In this document: in pieces, positions 3,492-13,714 of the stretch | Position numbering within the stretch: position 1 is the stretch's first letter | Layout of the letters: every line of letters starts with the position of its first letter | NCBI RefSeq assembly: GCF_019134595.1 | Contig: NZ_CP077770.1 | Span: 1,136,001 to 1,200,000 of the forward strand | Direction of reading: 5' to 3' | Length of the DNA stretch: 64,000 bases | DNA from: Pseudoalteromonas shioyasakiensis | GTDB lineage: Bacteria; Pseudomonadota; Gammaproteobacteria; Enterobacterales; Alteromonadaceae | Program-made: the position numbers and the translations under genes | The notes under the pieces: generated by a model | The model's database searches: none | What the model saw: only the letters and a program-made list of their open reading frames with translations | What the model was told of the DNA's origin: nothing

Positions 3492-5420
3492 TTATTGAAT
3501 AGCTTTTTTTACTTCGCGCCAGTCAATAATCTTAAAGTTTTGCGGTGCCTGTGGCATACGGTTGTAACCATCTTGCACAATTAGCACCCCTTCAGGGTAG
3601 CCCGGTAACGCAGCCGGTGTTACCGTTAGGCCATCAGTTTCTGATACGCCATCTATTGCTAACTCTAGGTTATTGCTGATTGCAAATTTACCCGCAAACT
3701 CTAGGCTAGGGGTATTGCCATCAATAATTTTATAAAGCACATAGCTGTAATCACCTTGGCTAGAAACCACTAAATAGCGGGCATCTTTTGCGTAGTAGAT
3801 TTCCATGCCTTCTACATCATCAACCAACATATCGTTCACGGTTTGCAGCATTACAGGTTTATTTCCTGCTGTTGGCTCAGCGCCAATAAACCAAATACCT
3901 TCGTCTTCTTCACCTAAAAATAGCTGTGCGGTTTTATCATCTGCACTGCAACCTTCTGGTTGGCTTGGAACACTAAACTCGCGCACTAGTTGTGCTGATA
4001 CGCTCTCATTATTACCAGTTAGTTTGTATTGCTGAAATAGGCCTGATTTGTCATTCATAAACACATAGTTGCCTGTGTTTGATGAATACATACACATACC
4101 GTAAATTTCTTTTAGAGTCGTTGGCAGCTCAGCAAGATGTTGCACCTGATTGTGAGTATCGACGCTGTAAACACTGATGCTGTTATGAGTACGGTTACTA
4201 CCTGTAATCCAGGTATTTGTTGCGTTGCTGATACTTGCATGTTGGCGCACATCAACATTATTTAAGCGGCCTGATTCTAGTGCTTGTAGCTCTTTGCCTG
4301 CAAGGTCATACACCATTAAACCGCGGCGTTTATCGGTACCTAAGATCAGGCTTTTTGCTGCATTTTTAGGGTTTACCCAAATAGCAGGGTCATCGGCGGC
4401 ATCACCAAAAGCACGTACTGCATCGGTTTGCGCTTGTGCATTGATGTAAGTAACAGCGGCTGTTTTAGCGCTATTATGTTGTTTAGCCTGCCCATCGATT
4501 TGACCTTTTACATAATGACCTGATTCATCATCGTACAACACGATATCAGCTTGCTTATTGTTAAAACGCACTGCGGCAGATTCAATTGCCAGTTCACCAG
4601 CAAACTGCCAGCTACTAAAACGTTTAGTACTCTTGTCGTAGCGATGTAATTGGTTATCTTCAGAGGTGGTAAACCATAAGCTACCATCATCTGTTGTGCT
4701 TAAACCGCCAACTTCAGGCGCTAAGCTGCCAAATGGCGACATCAACGCAACGGGCTTTTTATCTGCGCGCGATTCAGCATCTGCGTTAATTTGCCAAATG
4801 CCTAGCTCGCCTTCACTTAAATAAAGAGTTTTACTGTTATCATCAACCGCACAGCCTGATGTTTCACTTACGCCAGCAAACTCGCGTAATTCAAGGTTTA
4901 ATGCGCGTTTGTTTGCCATATCAAACACCAGTGTTTCGCGGATAAGACCACGAGCGTCTGCTACAAATGCCGAAACTGCCTGAGTGGTTGGGTTAGCAAA
5001 TAAACACACCGCCTCAGGTTTTGCTTTTGGTGGGCTGATACGGCTAATTTCAGTTAGCTGCCATTTAACTGCTTTTTGTAAACTAAAAATCACCGCTTGG
5101 TCAGCTTCGTTGTCGATGCTAGAAACAAGATAACTGTTTTTGTTGATCGCCTTAACAGATAACGCTTCGAAGTTACCTTTTTGTAATGCGTGCTGTTTAC
5201 CTGTGGCATCAATAAGTTGCAGGCCTTGGCTTTGTGAGCTTAATAGCCAAGCGTCATCAGCAAGGGCTGCTGCTTGTGAGCCTTGCATATTTTCAGTCGT
5301 GCCAAAGGCTGTTAATTGGTTTTTACTTGGTGTCTCGGTTGCCGTTGTTTGGCTACACGCAGCTAGGGTGCTTAGCATCACTGCACTGGCAACAAGATTA
5401 AGTGGTTTTTTAAAATTCAT
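3492..5420 (-). CDS. Two-domain beta-propeller phytase, lipoprotein
   Basis: Predicted calcium-dependent 3-phytase releasing phosphate from phytate at the cell envelope. The start is taken at the ATG at 5418-5420 because GGGGA lies just upstream and it opens a lipoprotein signal with lipobox LAAC (Cys about 22). The C-terminal half (about 330-640) is a canonical phytase propeller: FGDAADDPAIWVNP near 340, then GTDKRRGL, GRLNNVDVR and a conserved late stretch ending QDGYN. The N-terminal half (about 40-320) looks like a second, degenerate propeller, as in dual-domain phytases of Shewanella and Pseudoalteromonas. It lies 58 bp downstream of a TonB-dependent receptor, the usual partner of this family. 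A Pho box lies upstream of that receptor. Confidence 0.9.
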   Translation of the reverse strand: MNFKKPLNLVASAVMLSTLAACSQTTATETPSKNQLTAFGTTENMQGSQAAALADDAWLLSSQSQGLQLIDATGKQHALQKGNFEALSVKAINKNSYLVSSIDNEADQAVIFSLQKAVKWQLTEISRISPPKAKPEAVCLFANPTTQAVSAFVADARGLIRETLVFDMANKRALNLELREFAGVSETSGCAVDDNSKTLYLSEGELGIWQINADAESRADKKPVALMSPFGSLAPEVGGLSTTDDGSLWFTTSEDNQLHRYDKSTKRFSSWQFAGELAIESAAVRFNNKQADIVLYDDESGHYVKGQIDGQAKQHNSAKTAAVTYINAQAQTDAVRAFGDAADDPAIWVNPKNAAKSLILGTDKRRGLMVYDLAGKELQALESGRLNNVDVRQHASISNATNTWITGSNRTHNSISVYSVDTHNQVQHLAELPTTLKEIYGMCMYSSNTGNYVFMNDKSGLFQQYKLTGNNESVSAQLVREFSVPSQPEGCSADDKTAQLFLGEEDEGIWFIGAEPTAGNKPVMLQTVNDMLVDDVEGMEIYYAKDARYLVVSSQGDYSYVLYKIIDGNTPSLEFAGKFAISNNLELAIDGVSETDGLTVTPAALPGYPEGVLIVQDGYNRMPQAPQNFKIIDWREVKKAIQ

Positions 5421-5478
5421 GGGATCCCCAAATATACAACAAGGCAGCAATGGGCTGCCTTAATAACTCTTATGTGTA

Positions 5479-7779
5479 TTAAAACGCGTAGCGCAGCATT
5501 AACTGAATAACAGGGCCTGCTTCTTCAGACTCCAGTTCATACTCGTCAAAGTCGCGGTTGATTTGGTCATCAACCGTGTCGAACTTGTTAAAGGTTTCGT
5601 CTTTACTTGCATCAAGTAGGTTTGAGCCTACTAAACGAAGCGTGACGTCTTGCCAGCGTTTTTCTACGAATACTTCAAGGTCAGCACCGTAATGTGTGGT
5701 CACTTCTTCACCCACGATACGGCCATACGCATCACCTTGTTTTCGGTAAGTTGCACCGAACGAAGCGCCTAAATCAGGTAGGTCTTGAATAAAACCCACG
5801 TTAAACACGTAGTCAGATTGGTCGTTGAATTTACGGCTACCAAAGGTGTCATCTACTTCTGAATCAAGCCATGAGTAGTTAAAGAATACCCCGGTGTTTG
5901 GCATGCTAATGGCGCTTAGCGGCGTTGATAAATCAAGCTCGATACCTTGTACATTGCCATCACCGGTGTTGCGCGGTTGCAAAATAAAAGTACCATCACC
6001 TTCTGAGCCTTGTTGGCCTGTATTAGCTATTTCGATAAGGTCAGTAACATCACGGTAGAACACATTGATACCCACAACGCCGCTTTTACCTAAGCGATAC
6101 TCATAGCCTAAGTCCATACCCCACGATGATTCTGGTTGTAGGTCTGGGTTACCTAAAAAGTCATTATCGCCTAACTCTTTTTCAAGTAGAGCTGGGGTGA
6201 TGTAGTCAAAATCAGGGCGACGCAAGCTACGTGCTACAGATGCGCTGACGCGGCCGTTTTCTGAGACGTTGTAGCGTAAATGTGCCGATGGTAAGAAGAA
6301 GTCGTAATCGTTTTTAGCGCTCACGCCTTCTGCTTTGTCAGTAATGGTTGAGTCGGTTGTTTCGTAGCGTACACCTAACTCCCACGAGAAGTCTTGGTCT
6401 TCGTGCTTAACTAATGCAAATACATCAAGGCGGTCTTCTTCGAGTTTATTGACGCCACCAGCGGCTGCTTCAAACTCGTTGTTAAAGCCTGCCAGTGACA
6501 GTGGTGTTTTGCTGAACTGATCCCAGCTTGTAAAGCTTTGTTCGCTTTCATCTTCGGCTTGATATACCGCTGTATCGCGCTCTTTACCTTGCACAAAGGC
6601 ACCGAATTGAATCGTTTTGCTCTCGCCTGCAAATAAGCTATGTTGCCATTGTAATGACCATTCTTTGTCATCAAGGTCTACGGTTTCTTCTTCTTCCTCA
6701 AACACCATTGGTAGCTCAGAAGTATCGATTTCTACTTCTTGCTCGTAAACAGACTCCTCAAAGCTTGCAAAACCAAGCTTAAATTTACTGGTGCCACCAA
6801 AAAGGGGTAATTCATAACCCGAGTTGATGTTGTAGTTGGTTTGGTCGATGAAAGATACATTGGCGTTGTCGGTTTCAAGATTACCGCCTTCAACAATTGA
6901 GTTATTGATTGCTGTTGGGTCGTCATATTCGAATGAACGCTCATCTTCAGTACGGTCGGTATCAACCCAAATTGCGCTGATATCGAACTTGCTGCCATCA
7001 TCAAAGGCTACTTCGTAGCTGGCGTTTAGCGAGGTGTCGTCACCGTCACGAGTGTCTGATTGATCTTCGCGGTTATCGAATTCTTCGGTTTTGTAATTGG
7101 TGTTATTCTCTGGGCTGTCGCCATAGCGTAGGCTTGATTTTTGTTTTGGGTTATAACGACCTTGTAAGTTCGCACCAAGTAGTAGACGGCCACCAGCAAA
7201 CTCAGTGCCGTAAACACCGGCAAAGCTTTCTTTTAATTCGCCATCATCATAACGCAGGCCACCTGCACGTAAGTAACCACCATCTAGGCTGTAACCGTCA
7301 CGCAATACAATGTTCAGCGTACCGGCAATAGCATCGGCAGAGCGGTTTGCACTTGAAGCACGAATAATTTCTACACGCTCAATTAGCTCAGCAGGAATAC
7401 GGTCAACAAAGAATGAGCGGTCAGCACCTGCACCAGGTACTTCTTCACCGTTAATAAGAACCTTTGTATAAGCTGGGCTTAAACCACGCATACGCGCGCC
7501 ATCAGACTCTAAAACATCCGATAAAAACGTCACACTTGGTACGCGTTTTAATGCATCACCGGCAGTAAGCGGTTCAAAACGTTGAAAGTATTCTTGTGAG
7601 TATTCAAGCGTCGGTGCCAGCTCTTGTGAGCGGTTGCGATAACCAATCTCGCCATATACAACAAGCTCTTCAGAGACTTTTACTTTTTTCTCTTCGCTGT
7701 TTTGTTCGTCTTGTGCGTAAGCGGCAAATTGGCATAAGGCGAGGGCGCTTACTAACGCCTTCGTTTTAAATTGTTTCAT
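5479..7779 (-). CDS. TonB-dependent receptor paired with phytase
   Basis: Outer membrane active transporter of about 766 residues. The start at 7777-7779 (MKQFKTKAL) is chosen over the longer frame because AGGAG lies about nine bases upstream and it opens a clean Sec signal ending near AAYAQ. The plug domain follows (AGDALKRVPSV, RMRGLSPAYTKVLINGEEVPG, ELIERVEIIRASSANRSADAIAGTLNIVL), then a 22-strand barrel ending in the aromatic LMLRYAF. It is first in an operon with the phytase, so the likely cargo is phytate, a phytate-metal complex or a breakdown product. This is inferred from context. Transcription probably starts at a PhoB-type promoter (Pho box 7830-7847, -10 at 7814-7819). Confidence 0.92.
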   Translation of the reverse strand: MKQFKTKALVSALALCQFAAYAQDEQNSEEKKVKVSEELVVYGEIGYRNRSQELAPTLEYSQEYFQRFEPLTAGDALKRVPSVTFLSDVLESDGARMRGLSPAYTKVLINGEEVPGAGADRSFFVDRIPAELIERVEIIRASSANRSADAIAGTLNIVLRDGYSLDGGYLRAGGLRYDDGELKESFAGVYGTEFAGGRLLLGANLQGRYNPKQKSSLRYGDSPENNTNYKTEEFDNREDQSDTRDGDDTSLNASYEVAFDDGSKFDISAIWVDTDRTEDERSFEYDDPTAINNSIVEGGNLETDNANVSFIDQTNYNINSGYELPLFGGTSKFKLGFASFEESVYEQEVEIDTSELPMVFEEEEETVDLDDKEWSLQWQHSLFAGESKTIQFGAFVQGKERDTAVYQAEDESEQSFTSWDQFSKTPLSLAGFNNEFEAAAGGVNKLEEDRLDVFALVKHEDQDFSWELGVRYETTDSTITDKAEGVSAKNDYDFFLPSAHLRYNVSENGRVSASVARSLRRPDFDYITPALLEKELGDNDFLGNPDLQPESSWGMDLGYEYRLGKSGVVGINVFYRDVTDLIEIANTGQQGSEGDGTFILQPRNTGDGNVQGIELDLSTPLSAISMPNTGVFFNYSWLDSEVDDTFGSRKFNDQSDYVFNVGFIQDLPDLGASFGATYRKQGDAYGRIVGEEVTTHYGADLEVFVEKRWQDVTLRLVGSNLLDASKDETFNKFDTVDDQINRDFDEYELESEEAGPVIQLMLRYAF

Positions 7780-7813
7780 AGGTTTGCTCCTGGTTGTCCT
7801 TGGTTTGATGAGC

Positions 7814-7847
7814 AAAGTACGCAGCTTAAATGACGCAAATGTGACAG
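7814..7847 (-). promoter_or_regulatory. Pho box and -10 for the TonB receptor/phytase operon
   Basis: Read on the minus strand, 7847 to 7830 is CTGTCACATTTGCGTCAT, two seven-base direct repeats four bases apart matching the PhoB consensus (7/7-like first copy, about 5/7 second). Exactly ten bases further lies TACTTT (7819-7814) as a possible -10. This is the geometry of PhoB-activated promoters, in which the Pho box replaces the -35. The start codon is 34 bases beyond the -10. Confidence 0.7.
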
Positions 7848-7965
7848 AAAATCGCTAACAGCCAGTAAAAACAAGTGATTAGAGGGTTTTAAAAGTACTT
7901 TTGAGCTGCAATAACCCCATCTTTTTAAGGCAATTACAGTACTTAAAGGGTTTAACAAGGTTTGA

Positions 7966-7999
7966 CTGTCGTTTTGCTGTCACATCATTGAGCTAATAT
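7966..7999 (+). promoter_or_regulatory. Pho box and -10 for the GGDEF/AraC operon
   Basis: CTGTCGTTTTGCTGTCAC (7966-7983) is a close match to the PhoB consensus of two CTGTCAT-like repeats with a four-base spacer. Ten bases downstream lies TAATAT (7994-7999), a good -10. The next plus-strand start is at 8064. Together with the minus-strand box at 7830-7847 this makes a divergent pair. Confidence 0.72.
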
Positions 8000-8063
8000 G
8001 ACCCTGCTGCTTTAAACGCTAACGAGTTAGCATGGCAGCGTGAACTATTGTTAGGTACTGAGA

Positions 8064-8981
8064 ATGCGATATAACCCTTTTACTCATCATCGATTTTTAA
8101 CCAATGCCGTTATTGCTTTGTTTGTGATTGCGTTTTTGCTAAGCGCGCAAGCAGGAGAATTAAAGCCTTTTGCTGATATCGCATGGTTAGATATTTTAGG
8201 CGAGGGTGGCATTGTGCTTATGACCCTTACTTGGATAGCTGCGCTGCTTATTTCGAGGCCGCCCGGCAAAGTCACCAGCTTTTTAGTGCTTGGGCTTGGG
8301 CTTTTTATGTTTTCAGCTTCCCTTGATTTATTTGATGAGTGGTTACATCAACCAACCAATACTTGGCTTACTTGGATTGAATCATTGCCTGCGCCGATTG
8401 GTATGATTTTCACAAGCCTTGGGCTGTATCAATGGCACCAAGAGCAATATGTACTTAACAGGCAATTAAAGCGCCGTGAAGCACAGCATCGTGAGCATGA
8501 GTTAGTGTGCTCAATAACAGGGCTGTATAAGGCTGATTACTTACAAGCAGTGCTAAAAGAGCAATTAAGTGAGCCACAGCCTCTGCAACTAGCCGCCATT
8601 GATATTCGCGGTTTTGCTGATTTTAACGCTGAATTTGGTTTTATCGAAGGCGACCGCTTACTAGGTGAAGTGAGCGAGCTTTTATTGATGAATTGCCGCC
8701 TTAGCGATGTGGTGTGTCGCTATGCAGGAGACTGCTTTATGGTGCTAATGCCAAATACCAGCGCAGTACAAGCAAAAGAGCTGGTGGCGCAAATTACCTC
8801 GGCGCTGAGCCATTGTGCATTTAAGGTCGAAGGTGCAAAACACGCAAAGTTTCAAGATGTAACAGCGGCCTTAGTAGGCAGTATACAAGGCGATACACCA
8901 CAAAGTTTAAGCTCGCGTTTACACGCTAAGTTACAACAACAAAAACAACAAAGAGTCAGCCATTGTGAAGCAGTATCTTAA
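8064..8981 (+). CDS. Membrane protein with degenerate GGDEF domain (probable c-di-GMP receptor)
   Basis: A 305-residue protein with about four hydrophobic segments (about 12-125), a basic linker, and a GGDEF-fold domain. The active-site loop reads AGDCF (221-225) instead of GGDEF, and the usual D-x-L-T motif has become SITGLYKAD. Cyclase activity is therefore unlikely. The inhibitory-site motif RLSD (212-215) is intact at exactly the right distance, so binding of c-di-GMP as a signal is plausible, as in PelD-type receptors. The membrane region is similar to that of the cyclase at 200-1108. It overlaps the following AraC gene by 17 bp, implying coupled translation. The promoter region carries a Pho box. 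Confidence 0.82.
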   Translation: MRYNPFTHHRFLTNAVIALFVIAFLLSAQAGELKPFADIAWLDILGEGGIVLMTLTWIAALLISRPPGKVTSFLVLGLGLFMFSASLDLFDEWLHQPTNTWLTWIESLPAPIGMIFTSLGLYQWHQEQYVLNRQLKRREAQHREHELVCSITGLYKADYLQAVLKEQLSEPQPLQLAAIDIRGFADFNAEFGFIEGDRLLGEVSELLLMNCRLSDVVCRYAGDCFMVLMPNTSAVQAKELVAQITSALSHCAFKVEGAKHAKFQDVTAALVGSIQGDTPQSLSSRLHAKLQQQKQQRVSHCEAVS

Positions 8982-9963
8982 TCAAGATGACAAATACCTC
9001 ACCGCACAGGGACTGATCACCACGCTGGTGGAGCTGGCCTTAAGTCGCGGCATTGCACTGCATAAATTACTCAGAGGCACAGGGGTGTTTGAGCAAGACT
9101 TAATGAGTGTGCAGCATCAGTTTAGTATTTCGCAGCAAGTGCGTTTATTGACGCAGTTTAAGCAGTTGATGAAGTCCGCCGACAGCGGTTTTTTATTAGG
9201 CAGTCAACTGGCAAACGATACCTCTGTTGCCGCCCAAGGCGTGTTACATGCAGCGCACATTGGCCAAGCTTTAAAGCAGTTACACAATTTGCGCATGCAA
9301 CTGGCACCTTTGTTATTTAGTTACAGTTATGTGCATAACGAGCAGTATTACATTGTGCTGCAAAACGCAGTAGGCTTGGATGATGAAATAAGCCAGTACG
9401 TTATGGAAATTTACAGCGCCGCGTTTTACCAAGTTCTTAAAAAAGTGGCGGGTGAGCGAGTCCCTTGTCAGTTTGAGTTTGCCTATAAACGCGCCAGACA
9501 TAGCCAAGAATACGAGCAGCATTTGGGCCTTAAAGTCGCTTTTGAAAAGACTATAACCCGTTGGGTATTGAATAAACACACGCTTAGGCTCACTAACCCC
9601 GCGTTTAGTAGTTTTAGGTTTTCACAAATTAACTCGCAACTAGCGGCATTAAATTCTGAAAATAGCACCTTTGTTGAAGCCGTGAGCCGATTAATTTATC
9701 AAACTCCGGCGTTAAATTTAGACCAAGTAGCCAGTCAATTTGCCATGAGCCCTGCAACCTTCAAGCGCAAACTAAAAGCTCATGGCGTGCGTTTTTCTAC
9801 CTTGTATGATGAGCAAAGTAAGCGCAAAGCGATTTACCTGCTTGCCATGCGCGAACAATGCAATGAGCAAGTTGCCATGCGCTTATCATTTTATGATATT
9901 GCTAATTTCAGACGAGCGTTTAAACGCTGGACCGGTCTTACGCCAAGTCAATTGAAGGGGTAA
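8965..9963 (+). CDS. AraC-family transcriptional regulator (arabinose-binding-like N-domain)
   Basis: A 332-residue regulator with a GTG start at 8965, inside the end of the GGDEF-like gene, so translation is probably coupled. The N-terminal half (about 20-200, starting LLRGTGVFEQDL) matches the effector domain of OruR/GbdR-like AraC proteins. The C-terminal 100 residues carry two helix-turn-helix units: LDQVASQFAMSPATFKRKL, then YDIANFRRAFKRWTGLTPSQ, the classic AraC signature. Targets are unknown. Its co-transcription with a putative c-di-GMP-binding membrane protein, facing the phytase operon, suggests a role in phosphate-limited behaviour, by inference only. Confidence 0.85.
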   Translation: MKQYLNQDDKYLTAQGLITTLVELALSRGIALHKLLRGTGVFEQDLMSVQHQFSISQQVRLLTQFKQLMKSADSGFLLGSQLANDTSVAAQGVLHAAHIGQALKQLHNLRMQLAPLLFSYSYVHNEQYYIVLQNAVGLDDEISQYVMEIYSAAFYQVLKKVAGERVPCQFEFAYKRARHSQEYEQHLGLKVAFEKTITRWVLNKHTLRLTNPAFSSFRFSQINSQLAALNSENSTFVEAVSRLIYQTPALNLDQVASQFAMSPATFKRKLKAHGVRFSTLYDEQSKRKAIYLLAMREQCNEQVAMRLSFYDIANFRRAFKRWTGLTPSQLKG

Positions 9964-9999: not shown

Positions 10000-11070
10000 T
10001 TAAAGGGTTTCTAAAAATGCGATGAGTGCATTTTTTTCATTCTTACTGAGCTCTAACTTATGCAGTAACTCAGTTGTCTGTGGGTAGTTTGGATCATCTT
10101 TAAATTTTTTTCTCGGTTTTGGCCTTGCTCCACCTGCGTTATAGAAGTTGACTATCCCTAGCAAACTTTGAAAGCCACCATGGTGCATCCAAGGCGTACT
10201 TTGTTGTAACGCTAAAAGAGAAGGGGTTCTAAACTTGCCAATATCAGCGGAGTCTTGGGTGGCATCAAAACGGCCTAAATCTTGAAGTTTTCTACCATAA
10301 AAATGTAGCCCCGTAACATGGAATTCATTGTCGCTGAGTAAAGCACCTTCATGACAAGTCATACACCTCGCCTTGGTTCTAAATAAATGTAAGCCTTCAA
10401 GTTGTTGATCGTCTAAAAGTGCGACAGCTTCACTAGGACTCGTTTGCGCTTTATCAATAAAGCGCGTGAATAATGACTCAGGTACATCAAAGGTGCGCTC
10501 AAAAGCAACAAGCGATAGAGCTAATAGCTCCTTATTAAGCGCTTCTTTGCCAAAGGCATTGAGTATTGGTTTTTTATAGTCCTCAGCCCTGTTTATTTTA
10601 TTAAGCACAAGCTCAACCGAACTGCCCATTTCTATTGGGTTTTCAATTGGCATTAATGCTTGCTGAGCTGCAGTTTTAGCTCTGCCATCCCAAAAGAAGC
10701 TTTGCCAATGATCAATACCAATAATGGCTTGGGTGTTTCGTGTGCCGACTTGACCGTCAATGCCGACAGCTAACTTTCGCCTGTCTGAAAACGCTAAACG
10801 AGACTCATGACAACTTGCGCAGCTTACCGTGTTATCTCGTGACAAGCGGGTATCGTTAAATAGTTTTTCACCTAATGCGATGATCTCATCATTTTGCTTA
10901 ATCGGCTTGGCTTTTAAAGGTTTGAGCGGTGCAGCTGGCACATCTTTACTGCTAATAATCGCTGGCCACTCATGCTGTGGCTTTGCGTATAACTCCCGTA
11001 ATGACTGCTCTTGCGCAAAGGCGCTCGCTGTAAAAATGCTGCACGTAAAGAGAAATAACCATTTATTCAT
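10000..11070 (-). CDS. Diheme cytochrome c peroxidase (CcpA/MauG superfamily)
   Basis: Periplasmic protein of 356 residues with a Sec signal (cleavage near AFAQ, residue 20) and two c-type heme sites, CASCH (84-88) and CMTCH (236-240). Other superfamily landmarks are FFWDGRA (about 126-132), the NPIEMG motif (about 144-149), RTPSLLAL and TPWMHHGG near the C-terminus. The superfamily includes hydrogen-peroxide-reducing peroxidases and MauG-like enzymes that oxidise tryptophan in partner proteins; sequence alone does not separate these here. Its ATG lies eight bases inside the end of the upstream TonB receptor gene, so translation is coupled. This pairing argues for a role tied to the receptor's cargo rather than general peroxide defence. 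Confidence 0.88.
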   Translation of the reverse strand: MNKWLFLFTCSIFTASAFAQEQSLRELYAKPQHEWPAIISSKDVPAAPLKPLKAKPIKQNDEIIALGEKLFNDTRLSRDNTVSCASCHESRLAFSDRRKLAVGIDGQVGTRNTQAIIGIDHWQSFFWDGRAKTAAQQALMPIENPIEMGSSVELVLNKINRAEDYKKPILNAFGKEALNKELLALSLVAFERTFDVPESLFTRFIDKAQTSPSEAVALLDDQQLEGLHLFRTKARCMTCHEGALLSDNEFHVTGLHFYGRKLQDLGRFDATQDSADIGKFRTPSLLALQQSTPWMHHGGFQSLLGIVNFYNAGGARPKPRKKFKDDPNYPQTTELLHKLELSKNEKNALIAFLETL

Positions 11071-13714
11071 AGTTATACGACACCCCTAACCAAAACATTC
11101 TACCGGGTTCAATCCCTGAGTTTCCTTCTGTAATAGCATGACTACGTGCGTTGAATAAGTTGCTGATATCAAGGCGAACTTCAACAGATTGAGATTGACT
11201 TATTTGATAATTCCAACGGCTACTTAAGGCAAACATAATGCGAGAGTCAAAGGTATGTGCTTCGTACTTTGGCACAAATATTTCAACTGCTTCACACGTA
11301 GTACACTCACTACCAATACCAATTCGTTGATCGCTACTAGACTTAATTGCAGTTGTGTAACTGCCGCTGTAAGTTGCTGTTAAACCAGTTGAAAAAGTAT
11401 CAGTCCAATCTGTATTCCAACCAAAGTTTGCAGTTACAGGGCGACCAAAATTCGCTTTAAGGGTATCTAATTCAGATAGGCTCATGAGCTCACCCTCATA
11501 GTAAACCAGTGACTCGATAGGGGTGTTGTCAGGTGTTGCAGTGTAGTCACTATTGCTTTCACTATTTTGGCTATAAGATGCATTGGCCCATATTGAATGG
11601 TCGCCAAATTTTGCATCCCAAGACAGCGAATAACGCTCGCTTTCGCCAGTACCATTATTATAAATAGTAATATATTGATAACCGTCGTTTTTTAGGTTGG
11701 TTTCTTTATTTCTAGATAACTGGTCTTTTTTGTCGCGATGTACGTATTTAACTGCAAAGTTACCGAAACTCTCGGTAGCATGGCGAAGACCTAAGGCAAT
11801 TTCATCATCGTAAGGGCTTTTCACATCGTCAAAAATATAAAGAAAGTTACCTGTGTAAGAAGAAGGAAGCCAAGCTTGTAAATAACCGTTTTGAATAGGG
11901 CGATACTCACGATACGCAAACTTTTGTTGCTCTTTAATTTTATAACCGAGTAGGCCTGCATCGTAATAACGGTTTAAACCCGCAGTCAATAGTGTATTGC
12001 CATCGTTAAATACGTCATAACCCATTGATAAGCGTGGCGCGATATTGTGATTTTTGAAAAAATCATCATAGTCGTATCTAACACCTAAATGAAAATCAAA
12101 CTGTTTCCAAGTGATCACATCGGTTGCATATAGTGCTGCTTTATTTAAGCTTACGTCTATTTGTTCACTGGGTGTGACCAAACGTGAGTTAAAATACTGA
12201 GCTGTTGTCGCTACGTTATTCGAGTAGGCAAGTAAGTGCTCTGGGTTATTAAAGTCGATACTGCCACCTAATTGCTCGGCAAGGGTATCTAAATCAACAT
12301 AAAAACTTTGTTCAACACAATCAAGGGTATAGCCACTGCAGTTTAGTTGTGCGCTGGTTGATGAGTATTGAATTGGCGAGTCGTATTTATAATAGTTTTG
12401 TTGGCGAGTGCGCTCATAATTTTGGTGGTTAAGTTCAGCGCCAACGCGAATTGCGTGTTCAGTATTGCCCCACTTTTTACGCTCAAGTGTTAAGGTATTT
12501 CGCCAATTAAAGCTGGTTTGCGTATTATCAAGATTGCCATAGCCGCCGTACTCTGAAACAGGAGTTGAGTCGGCGCTTTGGTCTGCTAATTGACCCCACT
12601 CTTTACCTTTTGCTTGAAGCCAAGTATAAAAATGCGCAGGCCCTGTACGGTTGTTATCACTTTGACTCATATTAAATTTGCTGCTGAAGTGACCAAAGCG
12701 AGTTTCTTCAGCTAAATTTGCAGTAAAACCAAAACTTCCCCCTTCAACTTGATAGTCACTATTGAGAACGTCTTTCAAGTACGAGTCTGAAGTATAAGGG
12801 GCATACATAACGCTTAAATCAAGTGAATCAACCCAGCCATCGCGATAGCTGTATTTCAGTAGGGCGTTGATGTTTTCTCTACTTTCTACCTTCTGCGCTG
12901 AGAGTGAAATATCCGAAATATCACTTTTTAAATAGCTTACGCTCATTAGTAAAGCATGCTGTTCATTTAACTTTTTTTGTATTGAAAAATCGATATTAGT
13001 TTTTTCATAGATTGGTGGCTCAAGATCGTCTTTGCCCTCTGCGGTGTCATCAGGCTCATCGTTATCGATTATATGGTACTCCCCCCAGTCGCTGCGGTTA
13101 CCACGAATACCAAAGCTCACACGAGTATCTGTAGAAAAAGGTGAAATAGTTTCGGCATCAACAACGCCACCAGAAAAGTCACCAAAGTCTGCTGGAATGT
13201 TATGATCGTAAACAGTAATCGACTCAACAATTTGACTGTTAATATTCATGCTCTGCACACCGCCTGACACCTCATTTTCAGAGGCTCCAATACGGCTCGC
13301 ACTGGCAGGATCAAGACGATTGTTATAATTCATGCCATCAATCATAAAGCCTGTTTGCCAAGGCTTTGCACCCGAGATACTTATTTCAGGGGCGCTAATT
13401 TCAGCAAGGTTATCAATTGAGTAGTAGTCTTCACTTAATTGCACGCCCGGTAGTAAGGCAATCAATTCGTTGATATCACCATTACCTTTGGGGGTTGCTT
13501 CGATAAAGTTTCTATCTAAATAGGCACGACCTATCACCTCAGGTACTTCAATCCCGATGTATTGCCCTTTAACAGTAATGCGCTCTATCTCTTTGCATTG
13601 CTTATTGTTCTTATCGTTACATTGAGGATATGTTGTTTGTTGCTTTACTTCATTAGCGTGTAAAGGGGCATTAAGTAAAAGCATCAAACACGCTGATAAG
13701 TAGCGCATTTGCAT
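11063..13714 (-). CDS. TonB-dependent receptor (peroxidase-linked)
   Basis: Outer membrane receptor of 883 residues. AGGAG sits about eight bases before the first ATG (13712-13714), supporting this start; a Sec signal ends near PLHANE. The plug region is recognisable (INELIALLPGVQL, ISISGAKPWQTGFMIDGMNYNN, VESITVYDHNIPADFGDFSGGVV), followed by a long barrel with acidic loops. The last residues are VSYNYE, so the usual terminal aromatic is replaced by glutamate, which is unusual for BAM recognition. It overlaps the diheme peroxidase downstream and lies 289 bp below a Fur-boxed lipoprotein gene. Cargo is unknown; an iron or heme compound is suggested by that upstream Fur-like site only. Confidence 0.9.
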   Translation of the reverse strand: MQMRYLSACLMLLLNAPLHANEVKQQTTYPQCNDKNNKQCKEIERITVKGQYIGIEVPEVIGRAYLDRNFIEATPKGNGDINELIALLPGVQLSEDYYSIDNLAEISAPEISISGAKPWQTGFMIDGMNYNNRLDPASASRIGASENEVSGGVQSMNINSQIVESITVYDHNIPADFGDFSGGVVDAETISPFSTDTRVSFGIRGNRSDWGEYHIIDNDEPDDTAEGKDDLEPPIYEKTNIDFSIQKKLNEQHALLMSVSYLKSDISDISLSAQKVESRENINALLKYSYRDGWVDSLDLSVMYAPYTSDSYLKDVLNSDYQVEGGSFGFTANLAEETRFGHFSSKFNMSQSDNNRTGPAHFYTWLQAKGKEWGQLADQSADSTPVSEYGGYGNLDNTQTSFNWRNTLTLERKKWGNTEHAIRVGAELNHQNYERTRQQNYYKYDSPIQYSSTSAQLNCSGYTLDCVEQSFYVDLDTLAEQLGGSIDFNNPEHLLAYSNNVATTAQYFNSRLVTPSEQIDVSLNKAALYATDVITWKQFDFHLGVRYDYDDFFKNHNIAPRLSMGYDVFNDGNTLLTAGLNRYYDAGLLGYKIKEQQKFAYREYRPIQNGYLQAWLPSSYTGNFLYIFDDVKSPYDDEIALGLRHATESFGNFAVKYVHRDKKDQLSRNKETNLKNDGYQYITIYNNGTGESERYSLSWDAKFGDHSIWANASYSQNSESNSDYTATPDNTPIESLVYYEGELMSLSELDTLKANFGRPVTANFGWNTDWTDTFSTGLTATYSGSYTTAIKSSSDQRIGIGSECTTCEAVEIFVPKYEAHTFDSRIMFALSSRWNYQISQSQSVEVRLDISNLFNARSHAITEGNSGIEPGRMFWLGVSYNYE

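Follow-up and report, generated by a model that had tools for sequence, protein, structure and literature searches.

A control region of many marine bacteria that appears to switch organic-phosphate scavenging through two inputs

Introduction

Organic phosphate is a major source of phosphorus in the sea, and systems that combine a TonB-dependent receptor with a phosphatase are common in marine Gammaproteobacteria. The 64,000-nucleotide stretch of Pseudoalteromonas shioyasakiensis DNA analyzed here (hereafter the window) carries such genes in a minus-strand operon, the first encoding a TonB-dependent receptor (5479..7779; PF00593 and PF07715, with a GGAG-type ribosome site before the ATG at 7779) and the second a beta-propeller phytase (3492..5420; PF02333, Pfam E 4e-79, with a longer open reading frame at 3492-5450). 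Across an intergenic region of 284 bp (7780-8063), which lies between the divergent start codons ATG 7779 and ATG 8064, a plus-strand operon encodes a probable membrane protein with a degenerate GGDEF domain (8064..8981) and an AraC-family regulator (8965..9963), the two open reading frames overlapping by 17 bp. Why should a scavenging operon and this pair of regulatory genes share one intergenic region? A sequence-only reading of the locus had proposed that divergent Pho boxes couple them, phosphate starvation switching on phytate scavenging and a c-di-GMP-responsive programme together.

A TonB receptor gene likewise adjoins a phytase gene in a marine bacterium for which phytic acid was proposed as substrate (PMC3400609); unlike the system described here, that neighbourhood is described in a passage with no mention of a regulator, Pho box or operator, and the terms Pho regulon and phosphatase are absent from its text. 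In the open-licence part of PubMed Central we found no published description of a unit combining receptor and phosphatase with a GGDEF-like/AraC pair, although one may be in print elsewhere.

Results

Two divergent PhoB-type promoters are conserved across the genus

PhoB-dependent promoters carry direct repeats of CTGTCAT-like heptamers, 11 bp apart, which end 10 bp before the -10 and stand in for the -35. Both promoters of the intergenic region display this architecture, with two such heptamers, a 4-bp linker and 10 bp before the -10. The Pho box of the receptor/phytase promoter on the minus strand (7830..7847, CTGTCACATTTGCGTCAT) reads, from 7847 to 7830, CTGTCAC and GCGTCAT around the linker ATTT; it matches 11/14 consensus positions and is separated by 10 bases from the -10-like hexamer TACTTT (7814..7819). 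On the plus strand, the Pho box of the GGDEF-like/AraC promoter (7966..7983, CTGTCGTTTTGCTGTCAC), with heptamers CTGTCGT and CTGTCAC around TTTG, matches 12/14 positions and precedes by 10 bases the -10-like hexamer TAATAT (7994..7999), which itself lies within an operator element described below. The sequence thus agrees with the sequence-only reading as to both boxes and to the spacing of exactly ten bases on each strand.

Counts of the Pho pattern in this single genome are weak proof, and the window shows no excess over chance, with 4 matches at up to three mismatches versus 5.1 expected from shuffles; the whole genome contains 343 versus 220 for the pattern read backwards. Among the 18 genomic sites with at most two mismatches, a recognizable Pho gene was found behind two only, that of phoB and the plus-strand one at 7966-7983, in a survey that took the first open reading frame in one direction only and in which not all loci were turned to the strand of the site. 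PhoB is encoded in this genome (C1:781153-781830), direct heptamer repeats of the Pho type precede its phoB and pstS genes, and the PhoB model TIGR02154 was matched in all 108 Pseudoalteromonas genomes that make up our genus comparison, in 107 of them above its cut-off.

An orthologue of the GGDEF-like gene is present in 86 of these 108 genomes (best matches E 6e-207 to 8e-44, the next one 4e-19), and in all 86 the following gene encodes the AraC regulator. In 15 chosen representatives of clade 1, the minus-strand box reaches a mean column identity of 0.93 and the plus-strand box one of 0.74, while the remainder of the region averages 0.58. When we searched the receptor side for a box matching at least 10/14 positions, with a 10-bp spacer and an obligatory TANNNT, 53 of 69 non-redundant regions contained this combination, the opposite strand contained none, and dinucleotide shuffles predicted 0.02. 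On the regulator side of the 69 regions, the mean Pho score has a single peak of 7.35 exactly 10 bp before the -10, other offsets giving 2.1-4.8; at the peak offset the score is at least 8 in 44 regions and at most 5 in the remaining 25. Both boxes are therefore conserved in orthologous regions, that of the regulator side in a position-locked manner, and because of this conservation we take them as real; it is conservation, and not the counts, that rules out a chance origin. Scoring with a PhoB position weight matrix across the genus, which had been suggested as a check, speaks against them in part: p≤0.05 per region was reached in only 48/86 regions for the plus-strand box and 43/86 for the minus-strand box, the rest missing it, and the window's own boxes scored p=0.06 (plus) and p=0.01 (minus), with a matrix that was trained on the pstS/phoB promoters of the genus, is dominated by pstS sites and over-fits pstS. 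Conservation supports the first half of the sequence-only reading, namely that divergent PhoB-type promoters join the two operons.

A doubled element lies between the two promoters

As in promoters of the Pho regulon, heptamer direct repeats lie here 10 bp before the -10; unlike in those promoters, a further, dedicated pair of sites is flanked by two divergent Pho promoters. This element, TGAGCY-N4-TGACCC, was absent from the sequence-only reading. In the aligned regulator-side promoters TGAGCT-N4-TGACCC is the best conserved stretch, above the Pho box, so that the latter was rejected as the most conserved plus-side element in the 15 clade-1 representatives. The window contains two plus-strand copies. 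The proximal copy (7989..8004, TGAGCTAATATGACCC) contains the -10 of the regulator promoter, with which it is fused as TGAGC-TAATAT-GACCC. The distal copy (7902..7917, TGAGCTGCAATAACCC), 87 bp from the proximal one and 54 bp behind the receptor-side Pho box, reads TAACCC in place of TGACCC. Exact TGAGCTNNNNTRACCC sites occur only twice in the 4.7-Mb genome, both times in this intergenic region.

In the 86 intergenic regions of the genus, at least one plus-strand copy matching at least 10/12 positions was found in 78 and at least two copies in 60, as compared to 0.35 and 0 in shuffles preserving base composition only. At a threshold of at least 11/12, there are 144 sites in the 35,232 bp of these intergenic regions versus 5 in 1,399,626 bp of flanking DNA. 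In the genus, 51 of the 108 genomes contain the exact doubled form, never more than once, and the control pattern gave none. A stricter doubled pattern, which requires TGACCC twice and consequently misses the window's own pair (found by the laxer genus pattern), occurs once each in 34 of 395 genomes of the family, its reversed control giving none; 31 of these sites lie 58-210 bp from a GGDEF-like match and the other 3 beside detached receptor-phosphoesterase operons. We read the element as a putative operator of the neighbouring AraC-family protein. The confinement of its exact doubled form to this system in 395 genomes (34 sites) would make the regulon mappable from sequence.

This protein carries the double helix-turn-helix domain of the AraC/XylS family (PF12833, E 1.8e-12, with which the structural model agrees) behind an arabinose-binding-type N-terminal domain (PF12625); the model (pLDDT 95) has CdpR and VirS as nearest solved structures. 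Below these, the N-terminal domain of the model (m5a62305c839a) also gave weak matches to H-NOX/soluble guanylate cyclase proteins (Foldseek E ≥0.005).

Could PhoB alone run both operons, the element being the site of another factor or a structural part of the promoter and the AraC pair acting elsewhere? The Pho boxes are indeed real and conserved, and since the proximal copy includes the -10, promoter constraint may explain part of its conservation. The distal copy, however, sits on neither promoter and is nearly as conserved as the proximal one (in 69 regions, chosen for having two copies). No element matching at least 11/12 positions was found in the 131,118 bp around pstS/phoB at 34 pst/pho loci. 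The exact doubled sites follow the regulatory pair: they are present in 51 of the 86 genomes that contain it and in none of the 22 that do not. Finally, conservation within the AraC protein is highest in its two recognition helices (mean identity 0.81 and 0.85, versus 0.37-0.56 in other segments). We consequently regard control by PhoB alone as improbable.

The element varies between lineages. In part of the clade that includes the window (L104-L118), only a weak distal copy is present, its best match being 10/12 and some falling below 9/12. In a clade in which the phytase gene is directly divergent from the pair (L144, L146-L148, L150-L154, L158 and L159), the operator is inverted, with a minus-strand copy of 11/12 in place of two direct copies, and several of these loci add a weaker plus-strand copy beside it. 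Vreelandella utahensis (L371) has no operator of at least 10/12 despite a pair, a divergent receptor and a 14/14 regulator-side Pho box, and is possibly a lineage with an altered operator. Downstream of the regulator promoter, the window also contains an inverted repeat with a two-base centre (8018-8031, GCTAACGAGTTAGC); most of the 15 aligned clade-1 relatives share the TAGCAT that overlaps its end.

The two copies are in helical phase

Of 185 regions, 142 have two operator copies. Their non-redundant copy-to-copy spacings in the range of 80 to 165 bp fall into clusters at 85-88, 96-100, 108-110, 118-120, 129-135, 138-144, 151-152 and 160 bp, which are sharp up to 128 bp and blurred beyond, and the 87 bp of the window belongs to this series of turn intervals. 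Of 73 non-redundant spacings, 69 remain when those of 10, 191, 299 and 358 bp are dropped. The Rayleigh analysis, which drops only the last two (71 values), gave R=0.69 at a period of 10.5 bp; the spacings being non-independent samples, it was also run on the 30 distinct values, with R=0.51 and p about 0.0005. The distal copy lies 53-54, 63-65, 73 or 84-85 bp from the receptor-side Pho box (R=0.92, n=53). The control measure, which runs from the proximal copy to the start codon, shows a periodicity too, but a weak one (R=0.28, n=69, p about 0.004). Seven loci (L155-L157, L160, L161, L164 and L166) have spacings of 131-134 bp, whereas their relative L163 has one of 87 bp; the shift of about 44 bp is near four helical turns.

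A mutual phase of the two copies is as expected for a DNA loop bridged by the AraC protein. In the AraC/araBAD system, the regulator gene lies beside its target with divergent promoters, and separated sites of the same orientation stand in helical phase and support looping. The present locus is alike in having an AraC-family gene beside its target, divergent promoters and two in-phase sites of the same orientation, looping being here a prediction from the spacing. It differs in that its regulator belongs to another subfamily (PF12625 N-terminal domain, with CdpR and VirS closest) and would act on top of PhoB. To our knowledge, the operator sequence is unlike those of AraC/araBAD-type systems.

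The regulatory pair accompanies exchangeable phosphatase modules

The divergent neighbour of the pair at the 86 genus loci is a TonB-receptor frame in 74 cases and a phytase frame in 12; three of these frames are broken (L153, L162 and L175). Phytase was detected in 50 of the 108 genomes (E≤1e-20) and a metallophosphoesterase of about 430 residues in 56 (E≤1e-60). Together, the genomes carrying one or the other are exactly the 86 that contain the pair, and none of the 22 genomes without the pair has either enzyme. Three main types of locus can be distinguished: a receptor of about 767 residues with a phytase, in some cases with a 324-residue metallophosphoesterase between them; a receptor of about 929 residues with the metallophosphoesterase of about 430 residues; and a phytase directly divergent from the pair. 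Representatives of the types were confirmed by Pfam (PF00149 for the metallophosphoesterase, PF02333 for the phytase). Because many genomes replace or supplement the phytase with a metallophosphoesterase, the substrate is predicted to be broader than phytate.

The arrangement extends beyond the genus. All 20 loci from 8 other genera of the family combine the pair with a divergent receptor and a phytase and/or metallophosphoesterase. A wider set of named loci was taken from the best 80 of 236 matches to the peptide pattern CR[YF][AT][SGA]D[RCK]F[IVA][VI], of which L362, where no gene was called, was left out. Among the resulting 79 (Alteromonas, Colwellia, Bowmanella, Catenovulum, Glaciecola, Oceanobacter, Oleispira, Thalassolituus and others), a divergent receptor is present in 76, and in 73 a recognized phosphatase lies behind it. 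The AraC gene follows in 78 of the 79 loci from these best 80 matches, or in 76 under a strict distance rule, since in L330 and L336 it stands at a larger offset, while L328 stops at the contig end. Where the receptor is adjacent, the operator is present at least once in 75 of 76 loci and twice in 61, again among the best 80 of the 236.

Just downstream of the AraC gene, the window carries on the minus strand (10000-13714) a gene for a MauG/MbnH-like dihaem enzyme overlapping that of a large TonB receptor; this gene pair is present in some close relatives and absent in others.

These distributions bear on the second half of the sequence-only reading, according to which phosphate starvation would induce a c-di-GMP-responsive programme along with phytate scavenging, when this is taken to mean a programme that is separate and independent. 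In its favour, both operons carry Pho boxes. Against it, the 86 of 108 genomes that have the pair are exactly those that have the phosphatases. Similarly, in the window's own genome the exact operator is confined to this intergenic region, so that a wider AraC programme would have to run without exact sites. An independent programme is accordingly very improbable in our judgement; the pair looks like a local regulator of the scavenging operon, with no second programme.

Putative operators remain at scavenging genes detached from the regulator

Some genomes provide natural separations, in which the operator remains with the scavenging genes while the regulator genes lie elsewhere. Twelve receptor-metallophosphoesterase operons have no pair nearby (in 11 genomes of the clade with directly divergent phytase, and in G017). 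All 12 keep two operator copies, spaced by 85, 96 or 97 bp, and in 10 of them a Pho box lies 54 or 63 bp from the nearer operator, the other two having no Pho box at the threshold used. Five of the 51 exact doubled operators mentioned above sit at such detached receptor operons. Likewise, all 10 detached phytase genes have at least one operator. Each also has a Pho box matching 10-11/14 positions and followed by the 10-bp spacer and the TANNNT that the search required. In six of them a single perfect operator lies 135-139 bp upstream of the Pho box, off the usual phase, and in four it lies 64 bp upstream, three of these having a second copy 96-97 bp further. Genus-wide co-occurrence, the doubled operator and its retention at detached targets are the reasons for which we read the pair as a dedicated regulator of scavenging.

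A proposed two-input switch for organic-phosphate scavenging

Many marine bacteria thus appear to share a control region that switches organic-phosphate scavenging through two inputs, and the comparative evidence makes it probable that these are PhoB and the local AraC protein. As a first input, phosphate starvation would act through PhoB, bound at the Pho box that each divergent promoter carries in place of a -35, as judged from the sites. As a second input, the AraC protein (8965-9963) would bind the two TGAGCY-N4-TGACCC operators of the same orientation, its two helix-turn-helix motifs contacting TGAGC and GACCC, one helical turn apart. At about -100 of the receptor/phytase promoter, the distal copy keeps a constant helical phase relative to the receptor-side Pho box behind which it lies, and would allow AraC to touch the PhoB-bound receptor promoter in phase. 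The regulator's own promoter has its -10 inside the proximal copy. We infer that AraC bridges both copies through a DNA loop. While so looped, AraC would keep its own promoter repressed and the receptor/phosphatase promoter held or tuned. The shift of AraC to activation, together with PhoB, would come from a signal that the co-encoded membrane protein most likely relays. If this scheme is right, the system would possess a named operator and a small regulon, and one regulator would serve exchangeable enzyme modules, phytase or metallophosphoesterase.

The membrane protein is a candidate c-di-GMP receptor

The GGDEF-like protein (PF00990) is, as judged from its sequence, probably located in the membrane; its structural model contains helices at residues 10-30, 41-64, 69-90 and 109-143. 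AGDCF replaces the GGDEF motif, whereas the RxxD I-site (R212/D215) is retained five residues before it. Position 224, that of the catalytic glutamate, is C, R, K, L or S and never E in the 86 genus orthologues, and position 221 is A or T. The degeneracy noticed in the sequence-only reading is thus borne out, and with no GG(D/E)EF active site an active diguanylate cyclase was rejected. R212 and D215 are invariant in all 86 orthologues and in the 79 named loci from the best 80 of 236; residues 218-227 are conserved in that named set by selection, while R212 and D215 lie outside the collecting pattern. D180 and D223 are also invariant in the 86. In its GGDEF part, the model (pLDDT 93) was best matched by Foldseek to PleD with c-di-GMP (155 columns, 1.7 A), matches that reflect the GGDEF fold as such.

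This suggests that the protein is a c-di-GMP receptor acting via its I-site, and a c-di-GMP input to the system is plausible. Most likely, it would bind c-di-GMP at RxxD and not synthesize it; it may in addition sense through its polar membrane helices, this being the least certain step of the scheme. The complete proposal, in which a receptor with a dead GGDEF domain and an intact I-site, together with a looping AraC protein, gates the PhoB-driven import and hydrolysis of organic phosphate in many bacteria, is tentative, and we place it just below an even chance. A scaffold role competes with it, in which the GGDEF-like domain serves for dimerization or for interaction with AraC without binding c-di-GMP, the signal coming from the membrane helices or from the ligand domain of AraC. 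Seven polar residues of the N-terminal half (D43, E47, R65, D88, D91, E92 and E106) are conserved in 86/86 orthologues, as such a role would allow, and the arabinose-binding-type domain retained by AraC may have a ligand of its own. On the other hand, an I-site of exact spacing has stayed invariant (86/86, and 79/79 of the loci from the best 80 of 236) despite a decayed active site, and the best structural matches are PleD/c-di-GMP complexes, albeit with the restriction on the fold given above. The scaffold is a serious possibility that we nevertheless hold to be somewhat less than evenly likely.

Should the c-di-GMP receptor reading be true, scavenging would require phosphate starvation plus the right c-di-GMP (lifestyle) state, and c-di-GMP would possibly be connected directly with phosphorus acquisition, bypassing adhesion. 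PelD and PopA are degenerate GGDEF receptors that rely on the I-site only. LapD, which has an adhesin under its control and binds c-di-GMP via a degenerate EAL domain, is the protein linking phosphate and c-di-GMP in Pseudomonas fluorescens. Like these three proteins, that of the window has a catalytically dead GGDEF domain; unlike LapD, it has no EAL domain, keeps the I-site and has an AraC regulator as the partner gene. For P. fluorescens, an inner-membrane protein is described that connects phosphate with c-di-GMP (PMC3032545). Other AraC-family regulators, CuxR and VfmE, are described as binding c-di-GMP themselves through an RxxxR motif (PMC9045272). In contrast, 43 aligned AraC proteins of the present system have a single RxxxR with conservation above 60% (R317-R321). 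It falls within the second helix-turn-helix motif, and with none conserved outside the DNA-binding domain a CuxR/VfmE-like binder of c-di-GMP through RxxxR was rejected.

A second GGDEF protein is encoded in the window on the plus strand (200-1108). It has an intact GGEEF motif and no RxxD I-site; its N-terminal half is somewhat similar to that of the GGDEF-like protein, with D-x-x-D-E kept, and it shares 27-29% identity with GGDEF-like relatives (tblastn, three loci: L104, L106 and L108).
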